Shown: one piece after another, positions 36,912 through 39,366 of the stretch
Numbering within the stretch: position 1 is the first letter of the stretch
Layout of the letters: each line of letters starts with the position of its first letter
Assembly: GCA_014377775.1 (NCBI GenBank)
Contig: JACMOW010000081.1
Span: forward strand, 1-40,654
Length of the DNA: 40,654 nt
DNA from: Pedobacter sp.
Lineage (GTDB): Bacteria; Bacteroidota; Bacteroidia; Sphingobacteriales; Sphingobacteriaceae
Direction of reading: 5' to 3'
Translations under genes and position numbers: made by a program
The notes under the pieces: model-generated
What the model saw: the letters and a program-made list of their open reading frames with translations, nothing else
Database searches by the model: none
Told to the model about the DNA's origin: nothing

Positions 36912-37784
36912 CTAAAAATCAAATAAATGCTTTTCTGCATGGTAAGATGAACGCACTAATGGGCCACTTTCTACATATCTTAATCCTTTTGCTAAGCCTA
37001 TTTCCTTATATTTTGCAAACTGGTCTGGATGTATCCAATCTACCACAGGGTGATGGTTTTTTGTTGGTTGTAAATATTGACCTAAAGTTAAGATATGTAC
37101 GCCATTCGCTACTAAATCATCCATTGCTTCTAAAATATCTTCTTCCGTTTCGCCTAAACCCAGCATAATACCTGTCTTAGTTCTCAAACCAAATTCCGAA
37201 ATTATTTTTAATGCAGCTAAACTACGATCATATTTAGCTTGTATACGCACTTGTTTAGTTAGGCGCTTAACGGTTTCTACGTTATGCGACATCACCTCTG
37301 GACGCTCTTCCAGTACGCGATATAAATTATCCCATTGCCCTCTAAAATCTGGTATTAAGGTTTCTAAAGTAGTTTCTGGGCTTTCTCTTCGGATGGCCTG
37401 TAAGGTTTCAGCCCAAATTATGGAACCACCATCTTTTAAATCATCCCGATCTACGGAGGTAATTACACAATGTTTTACCTTCATTAGCTTTACAGAATTA
37501 GCCACGCGATTGGGCTCATCTATATCAACTGCCAAAGGGCGGCCAGTTGCAACGGCACAAAATGAGCAAGACCGTGTACAGATATTGCCTAAGATCATGA
37601 AAGTAGCCGTACCTGCTCCCCAGCATTCTCCCATATTCGGACAATTGCCACTCTCGCAAATGGTATGTAGTTTATGGGTGTCAACCAAACTGCGAACCAG
37701 TGCATATTCTTTTCCAACAGGTAGTTTTACTCTTAGCCAATCGGGTTTACGAGGTTTCTCTGTAACTACAGGTAGTTCAATCAT
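36912..37784 (-). CDS. lipA: Lipoyl synthase
   Basis: 290 aa radical-SAM enzyme that inserts two sulfurs into protein-bound octanoyl groups. The auxiliary-cluster motif is [13 protein letters not shown] (about residues 38-50). The radical-SAM CxxxCxxC is CTRSCSFC (about 68). [15 protein letters not shown] and the C-terminal [10 protein letters not shown], with the Ser that ligates the auxiliary cluster, are present. Length is typical. lipB is not adjacent. The start lies 4 nt after a good -7 box. Confidence 0.97.
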
Positions 37785-37912: not shown

Positions 37913-38323
37913 ATGGCTACTTCAAAAATTACGTATACAGGTGAATTAAGAACCGCTTCTATCCATTTAAAATCGGGCACAGAAATTATAACCGATGCGC
38001 CAGTAGATAATCAAGGTAAAGGTGAAGCATTTTCGCCAACAGATTTATTGGCTACCGCTTTAGGTAATTGTATGCTAACTATAGTAGGTATTGCGGCTAA
38101 AACACACGGCTTTAACATTGATGGTACAACTGCCGAGATCACTAAAATTATGGGCGAAAATCCTCGGCGTGTGACAGAAATTGTGGTAAATCTTCAATTT
38201 CCAGCAAATAATTATAGCAATAAAGAGAAAGAAATTATTGAGCGTTCAGCAAGAACCTGTCCGGTAGCGTATAGTTTGCATCCCGATATTAAGCAAGAAA
38301 TAACGTTTGGTTACTTTTTTTAA
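37913..38323 (+). CDS. OsmC/Ohr-family peroxiredoxin-like protein
   Basis: 136 aa. The two redox cysteines are in ALGNCMLTIVGIAAKTHG (about residue 51) and ERSARTCPVAYSL (about 117), the spacing of the OsmC/YhfA group. The family reduces organic hydroperoxides with Cys-Cys chemistry in the cytosol. YhfA-like members are less well characterised, so the substrate is open. It seems monocistronic, facing the minus-strand ytxJ unit across 35 bp with no clear terminator. Confidence 0.92.
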   Translation: MATSKITYTGELRTASIHLKSGTEIITDAPVDNQGKGEAFSPTDLLATALGNCMLTIVGIAAKTHGFNIDGTTAEITKIMGENPRRVTEIVVNLQFPANNYSNKEKEIIERSARTCPVAYSLHPDIKQEITFGYFF

Positions 38324-38358: not shown

Positions 38359-38694
38359 TTATGCTTTTTTCATCATCTCAACAACTTCCTCTGCAGAGAT
38401 GTCACCATGCGAAGAATCGAGAACACATTCGCCATTTTTAATGACTAAAAGTTGAGGAGACTCATGGTGCACCTGAAACAATTCTGCAATTTCTGCAGAT
38501 ATGCTTCGATAACTGATCAAATCTAAGAAGTATAGGTTAATTTCCTTAGGTAACAAATCCCAGTCCATTTCGAAACGTCTTTTTGCCATCATACTTACAG
38601 AACAACGCGTACTGTGTTTAAAAATTACACTGTAATTCTCATCATTTTTAATCGTATTTAGCTGCGCTAAATCGGTAAGGCTAATCCATTGCAT
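38359..38694 (-). CDS. ytxJ: Bacillithiol system redox-active protein YtxJ
   Basis: 111 aa thioredoxin-fold monothiol protein. The active-site segment is FKHSTRCSVSMMAKRRF (Cys near residue 31), the TxCS-type pattern of YtxJ bacilliredoxins. SPQLLVIKNGECVLDSSHGDIS, with cis-Pro after Ser, completes the fold. It is thought to remove bacillithiol from S-bacillithiolated proteins. bshA in this window supports bacillithiol production by this organism. The gene begins 2 bp after a small lipoprotein gene on the same strand. Confidence 0.92.
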   Translation of the reverse strand: MQWISLTDLAQLNTIKNDENYSVIFKHSTRCSVSMMAKRRFEMDWDLLPKEINLYFLDLISYRSISAEIAELFQVHHESPQLLVIKNGECVLDSSHGDISAEEVVEMMKKA

Positions 38695-38696
38695 TT

Positions 38697-38819
38697 TTAA
38701 GGTCTCTTTCTTTTCCCCTCTGGGTAAGTACTATAGGCGGGACAAAGACGAGATGAACAAGATTCTAATACAACAATTGCGCAAAACACAACTAATAATA
38801 GAATGGCAATTTTTTTCAT
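38697..38819 (-). CDS. 40-aa lipoprotein, not in the ORF track
   Basis: Reading from ATG at 38819 gives MKKIAILLLVVFCAIVVLESCSSRLCPAYSTYPEGKRKRP (quoted here in two parts: MKKIAILLLVVFCAIVVLES and CSSRLCPAYSTYPEGKRKRP) then TAA. It has a charged start, a hydrophobic core, a lipobox-like LESC with Cys21, and a 20-residue mature tail ending in a basic KRKRP. The CPAY segment resembles small Bacteroidota lipoproteins I have seen from memory. The stop is 2 bp from the ytxJ start, so the two are probably co-transcribed. Function unknown. Coding signal rests on the leader and lipobox structure and the tight spacing. Confidence 0.75.
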   Translation of the reverse strand: MKKIAILLLVVFCAIVVLESCSSRLCPAYSTYPEGKRKRP

Positions 38820-38874
38820 CTTTATGTTTTTTAAAGCCCTAAAGTACTAATTTTTATGAATAACAAATAATTCT

Positions 38875-39366
38875 TTAAATTGTTGAAGCGAAAAATGCCA
38901 TTTTTAGGGCAGTTATTGCTGCCTCATCACCTTTATTCCCATGCTTTCCACCTGCTCTGTCTAAGGCTTGCTCTTCAGTATTGGTGGTAAGTACACCAAA
39001 AATAACTGGTTTACTATATTTTATGCCAACATTGGTAATGCCATTTGCAACCGCATCGCAGATAAAATCGAAGTGTTTCGTATCGCCCTGTATTATACAA
39101 CCCAAGCAAATTACCGCATCGATATTATTTTGGTGATTTAATAAAATTTCGGCGGCAGTAGTAAGTTCAAAACTACCTGGAACAGCTTTAGTGATGATGT
39201 TCTTTTCTTTTAAACCGTGCTTTAGTAAAGTTTTTAATGCACCTTCATACAAAGCTCCTGTAATTTTTGCATTCCATTCTGCAACCAAAATTGCAATCTT
39301 AAAGTTGCTACCATCTGGAATGATGGTATGGGAAAAGTCGGAAAGATTTTTTAAATGTGAGGCCAT
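38875..39366 (-). CDS. ribH: 6,7-dimethyl-8-ribityllumazine synthase
   Basis: 163 aa, normal for the lumazine synthase that makes the riboflavin precursor in a large capsid-like oligomer. KIAILVAEWNAKITGALYEGAL (substrate loop), VPGSFELTTAAEILL, CLGCIIQGDTKHFDFICDAV and FGVLTTNTEEQALDRAGGKHGNKG (with the catalytic His in DTKHFDF) match the family along its length. A -7 box lies 10 nt upstream of the start. No FMN riboswitch is present. In many Bacteroidota ribH follows a TPR membrane protein gene and neighbours recF, as here. Confidence 0.97.
   Translation of the reverse strand: MASHLKNLSDFSHTIIPDGSNFKIAILVAEWNAKITGALYEGALKTLLKHGLKEKNIITKAVPGSFELTTAAEILLNHQNNIDAVICLGCIIQGDTKHFDFICDAVANGITNVGIKYSKPVIFGVLTTNTEEQALDRAGGKHGNKGDEAAITALKMAFFASTI

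Follow-up and report, generated by a model that had tools for sequence, protein, structure and literature searches.

A 40-residue lipoprotein gene upstream of ytxJ in Pedobacter belongs to a family of small CPAY lipoproteins in the class Bacteroidia

Results

Analysis of a 40,654-nucleotide stretch of Pedobacter sp. DNA (contig JACMOW010000081.1; hereafter the window) revealed a gene for a 40-aa lipoprotein on the minus strand (38697..38819, stop codon included). Its translation, its conservation and pN/pS within the genus, and its relatives in Bacteroidia leave almost no doubt that the gene is real, and the same holds for the family of small lipoproteins to which it belongs, here called the CPAY family. 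This family is apparently undescribed in Pfam, NCBIfam, PDB, and the literature searched. The gene lies immediately upstream of ytxJ in the window, but this link is a matter of local gene order in the genus and not of family function.

The gene and its product

Read on the minus strand from 38819 to 38697, the frame starts with ATG and translates to MKKIAILLLVVFCAIVVLESCSSRLCPAYSTYPEGKRKRP, that is, MKKIAILLLVVFCAIVVLESC followed by SSRLCPAYSTYPEGKRKRP. The translation confirmed the charged N-terminus, hydrophobic leader, L-E-S-C lipobox, and basic tail described in the first-pass annotation, and the general features of a lipoprotein (N-terminal basic residues, a hydrophobic stretch, and a lipobox Cys) appear as MKK-...-LESC here and with [SA]C at the lipobox family-wide. 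The signal peptide and lipobox are predicted to span residues 1–21 (38757..38819, minus strand), ending in L-E-S-C with Cys21 as the putative lipidation site, from reading the sequence and from the single helix that AlphaFold2 placed at residues 2–23 (pLDDT about 90 for residues 1–20). The predicted mature lipopeptide, C-SSRLCPAYSTYPEGKRKRP (38700..38759, minus strand), comprises 20 residues counting the lipidated Cys and showed no confident fold over residues 21–40 (AlphaFold2 pLDDT about 60, then 52). Within it lies C-P-A-Y at residues 26–29 (38733..38744, minus strand), the conserved element of the family according to four alignments (A1–A4) and residue counts.

Conservation and selection within the genus

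Protein searches placed the frame directly upstream of ytxJ on the same contig in all 37 genus genomes searched, the window genome included (E 2e-22 to 1e-12), and the conservation of frame and lipobox beside ytxJ, named in the first-pass annotation as the test of its proposal, was thus found in relatives. Among 39 distinct genus sequences, pS was 0.74 and pN 0.12 (ratio 0.17), with 5242, 2247, and 13190 differences at codon positions 1, 2, and 3, respectively, and between the window gene and its nearest relative, 17 changes were synonymous and 2 non-synonymous. The small gene is under strong purifying selection in the genus, and the proposal that a small lipoprotein gene had been overlooked here was borne out. 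A chance open frame that happens to resemble a lipoprotein might be suspected with only 40 codons, under the usual ORF cut-offs, but these conservation and selection data refute it, leaving it a negligible probability. The genus has its own variant of the motif, with four spacer residues between the two Cys and without the H and E of the family consensus.

The stop codon lies at 38699–38697 and the ytxJ ATG at 38694, so that the 2-bp gap reported earlier is exact in the window; it does not hold generally, since the gap ranges from -1 to 102 bp across the genus, and it is therefore not a conserved coupling signal.

Promoter-like elements

The small gene probably has its own promoter, located between ribH and the small gene. 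A putative Bacteroidetes-type -7 box, TACTTTAG (38839..38846, minus strand), stands 19 nt before the ATG, and a candidate -33 element, TTTG (38864..38867, minus strand), was read 17 nt upstream of this box. Most of the 39 genus sequences carry like boxes, TANNTTAG or TANNTTTG, about 18–33 nt 5' of the ATG, and these resemble the Bacteroidetes -7 element TAnnTTTG. In the genus, ytxJ is very likely co-transcribed with the small gene. In a genus sub-group (L019, L026, L028, L040, and L042), no -7 box of the common kind was found close to the ATG; these sequences instead share a GATCGCTTCATTACCATT-like stretch 5' of the ATG, which may reflect a longer leader. An Rfam scan of the region found no RNA family.

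The CPAY family across Bacteroidia

A profile built from 11 genus sequences also matched members of further families within the class, and related lipoproteins of 35–50 aa were found throughout Bacteroidia, with a lipobox Cys, usually five residues, and then C-P-A-Y (consensus SSCKSHE[KR]CPAYGK; more fully, MKK-(hydrophobic)-SSC-K-[ST]-H-E-[KR]-C-P-A-Y-G-K-tail). Among the loci from the genus-profile search, 26 of 30 had a short frame in which the lipobox is accompanied by a second Cys, this one in C-x-A-Y/F; of the remaining four, at least L083 (genome G086) also has a copy, seen as L178. With a broader profile, strong matches were obtained in 16 of 19 Sphingobacteriaceae and in at least 129 other genomes (396 genomes in all), and a search across the phylum at E 1e-5 gave matches in 9 of 148 genomes, all of them in Bacteroidia.

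The spacer between the two Cys was five residues long in 70 of 78 sequences (3–9 allowed), and the mature part had exactly two Cys, one being the lipidation site, in 74 of 77 sequences; the sequences for these counts were gathered by a CPAY-like filter, and 27 of the loci by a DNA pattern built on the consensus, and the invariance of C, A, and Y is thus partly imposed by the collection. In weaker families, profile matches showed CPDF, CPAH, CPKF, and CPNY variants as well as tandem pairs. The basic KRKRP end stressed earlier stands as a genus trait, a basic tail being present throughout the genus, but the wider family instead conserves C-P-A-Y, and its unconserved tails are mostly neutral to basic.

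Tandem pairs of CPAY-like small lipoproteins were observed at L191:5956-6211, L221:5944-6228, L232:1293-1620, L244:1492-1842, and L231:1462-2048. L232 and L244 each include a longer copy whose Lys-rich tail ends in ...DLFGNKR or ...SNLFPKKMR, which suggests a second subfamily.

In several families carrying ytxJ, no convincing copy of the small gene was found, and it is therefore not essential to all Bacteroidia. Sequence searches of Pfam, NCBIfam, and PDB returned no family other than signal-peptide matches, and a PDB profile search gave only signal peptides and a chance match to ribosomal L32, with no solved structure. Our literature search found no paper on the CPAY motif or on small lipoproteins of Bacteroidetes that had escaped annotation, and for Ribo-seq it yielded only a methods review.

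Gene neighbourhood and relation to ytxJ

In the window, the small gene is flanked downstream by ytxJ, encoding a BrxC-like monothiol bacilliredoxin (38359..38694, minus strand; PF11009 E 1.9e-35, TIGR04019 E 2.9e-36), and upstream by ribH, encoding 6,7-dimethyl-8-ribityllumazine synthase (38875..39366, minus strand; PF00885 E 1.1e-53). A TPR protein gene also lies upstream on this strand in the window. In genus relatives, ribH lies upstream on the same strand at 28–192 bp. The window YtxJ has STRCSVS and that of a relative (L211) STRCSIS, in contrast to the TCPIS active site given in the literature for B. subtilis BrxC.

Gene order was then counted at 59 related loci from families other than that of the window. 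A divergent uracil-DNA glycosylase gene (ung) was present in 45 of these loci, and the opposite-strand order in related loci is GWxTD protein, BamA-like POTRA protein, and uracil-DNA glycosylase, followed by the small gene. After the small gene, ytxJ occurred in 20 loci, a convergent osmC-like gene in 40 (in the window at 37913..38323, plus strand; PF02566 E 4.4e-15), same-strand lipB in 37, and same-strand lipA, encoding lipoyl synthase, in 35 (in the window at 36912..37784, minus strand; Radical_SAM and LIAS_N). The lipB assignment is putative, from its position before lipA and sequence reading, with no Pfam match. The small gene was retained where ytxJ, osmC, or ung was missing, and without ytxJ it still sits between ung and osmC. 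The ancestral site is between the divergent uracil-DNA glycosylase gene and the convergent osmC, before lipB-lipA; where other families have ung, the window's genus has ribH and the TPR gene. The BamA-like protein at L207:3477-5207 (576 aa, POTRA-containing, opposite strand), whose gene lies beside ung in many Bacteroidia, is possibly a BamA paralogue.

Across 377 genomes outside Sphingobacteriaceae, 84 had both a strong-match small gene and ytxJ, 45 had the small gene without ytxJ, 162 had ytxJ only, and 86 had neither, giving an odds ratio of 0.99 (Fisher p = 1), with a strong-match cut-off that misses weaker true copies of the small gene. Where both positions were listed, the two genes were adjacent in 19 of 39 genomes and apart in 20. 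Since 45 clear carriers have no ytxJ, the small gene does not need it. The earlier proposal of coupling to ytxJ therefore survives within the genus, where adjacency holds in all 37 genomes searched and co-transcription is very probable, but does not extend to the class. A special tie to bacillithiol redox was left unsupported by these strong carriers without ytxJ and by the ung-osmC site kept in its absence.

Discussion

Possible function of the lipopeptide

The Bacteroidetes surface-export signal is K-(D/E)2 (PMC5080379), or an equivalent acidic run, after the lipid Cys, in the region +2 to +6. None of 77 family sequences, collected with the CPAY-like filter, had two acidic residues at +2 to +6, each having at most one there, and the absence of this signal suggests that the lipopeptide faces the periplasm in the outer membrane. 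Once signal peptidase II had cleaved the precursor and Cys21 had been acylated, the resulting lipopeptide, about 20 residues long, would sit in the periplasmic leaflet of this membrane. Because it appears unfolded and carries the conserved C-P-A-Y beside its anchor, we infer a docking element: the peptide may serve as a small cofactor for a larger envelope partner, into which C-P-A-Y would insert at the membrane surface; the peptide's single free Cys would be buried or held in a mixed disulfide with the partner. In the genus, the downstream ytxJ would be read from the same promoter. We put this forward as the best explanation but only tentatively, at somewhat less than an even chance.

As a general partner, we considered the syntenic BamA-like POTRA protein (576 aa), whose gene lies near ung in 27 of the 59 loci, and rejected it. 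Its gene was not found in the Sphingobacteriaceae tested, the window's genome among them, and most of these keep the small gene; many other genomes have the BamA-like gene but no convincing small-gene copy.

The main rival to the docking model is a redox function shared with osmC and ytxJ, in which the free Cys of CPAY would be redox-active or sacrificial in oxidative or thiol stress, and the envelope peptide would form one unit with a bacilliredoxin and a peroxide reductase. The conserved free Cys, the convergent osmC in 40 of 59 loci, and the ytxJ gene 0–13 bp downstream in many of them are consistent with such a role. However, osmC lies on the opposite strand and so cannot share a transcript with the small gene, YtxJ is a cytoplasmic protein whereas the lipopeptide would be outside the cytoplasm, either gene can be lost or relocated while the small gene stays, and the odds ratio shows no co-occurrence with ytxJ, so that we consider this role unlikely. 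The short distance to ytxJ, 2 bp here and 0–13 bp in many relatives, could also suggest a leader ORF whose translation, rather than product, matters, ytxJ translation being controlled by coupling. As a sole function this is largely refuted and very improbable, given the 45 strong-match genomes that keep the small gene without ytxJ, the variable gap within the genus, and selection that acts on the peptide, lipobox and CPAY included.

A structural, self-associating lipoprotein of the entericidin or Lpp type, whose disulfide dimers tune outer-membrane stiffness, peptidoglycan contact, or vesiculation while the basic tail touches peptidoglycan or LPS, seems about as doubtful as the redox role. The small size, the single free Cys, and the tails, mostly neutral to basic in the family and basic throughout the genus, would suit it, but no Pfam entericidin or Lpp match was found, and a variable tail alongside a conserved C-P-A-Y suggests specific contact over bulk structure.

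A large proportion of Bacteroidia carry this gene family, which is strongly selected in the genus, yet it has no name or function in the libraries and papers searched, probably having been overlooked because its products are only 35–50 residues long. Should the lipopeptide serve an outer-membrane machine as a cofactor, an aspect of how the Bacteroidota envelope is built that small size alone has kept from notice would come into view. The peptide's single free conserved Cys makes disulfide cross-linking a direct route to trapping the partner.

Comparison with known small lipoproteins

YtxJ/BrxC, the neighbour in the genus, is a separate cytoplasmic protein with no class-wide co-occurrence. Entericidin and colicin-lysis lipoproteins resemble the CPAY family in size, lipobox, and short mature peptide, but to our knowledge lack C-P-A-Y, and a Pfam search with 29 family members gave only one weak match to these families (Lysis_col, E 0.077). 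The BamK and PG1828 lipoproteins of Bacteroidota (NCBIfam) also gave weak matches, and identity with either was rejected, as scores were 14–19 bits against cut-offs of 120 and 50 and the matches were essentially confined to the signal peptide and lipobox region (first 22–30 profile positions). BamK is a peptidyl-prolyl isomerase (PMC12578637), and its NCBIfam model has 199 positions.

The closest parallel is found in E. coli and other Proteobacteria with LptM (formerly YifL; PF13627, LptM_cons). In E. coli, this lipoprotein, about 6 kDa in size, docks in LptDE (PMC10567701). Both are very small outer-membrane lipoproteins, the location being predicted for the CPAY family, and both have a conserved short segment with Pro-x-Tyr after the lipidated Cys, followed by a variable tail. 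In LptM the arrangement is C-x3-G-P-L-Y, whereas the CPAY family usually has five spacer residues before C-P-A-Y, and we know of no second conserved Cys in LptM. At E 0.1, PF13627 matched none of 29 family members, and it gave nothing over the cut-off in 41 genomes searched; membership was rejected on this test, and the likeness between the two is one of logic. It is conceivable, though rather improbable, that the CPAY lipopeptide takes the place of LptM in Bacteroidia: anchored by its lipid, it would act as a cofactor that occupies the gate of a barrel machine in the outer membrane (LptD, BamA, or a T9SS part), and its free Cys would guide the disulfides of the partner.
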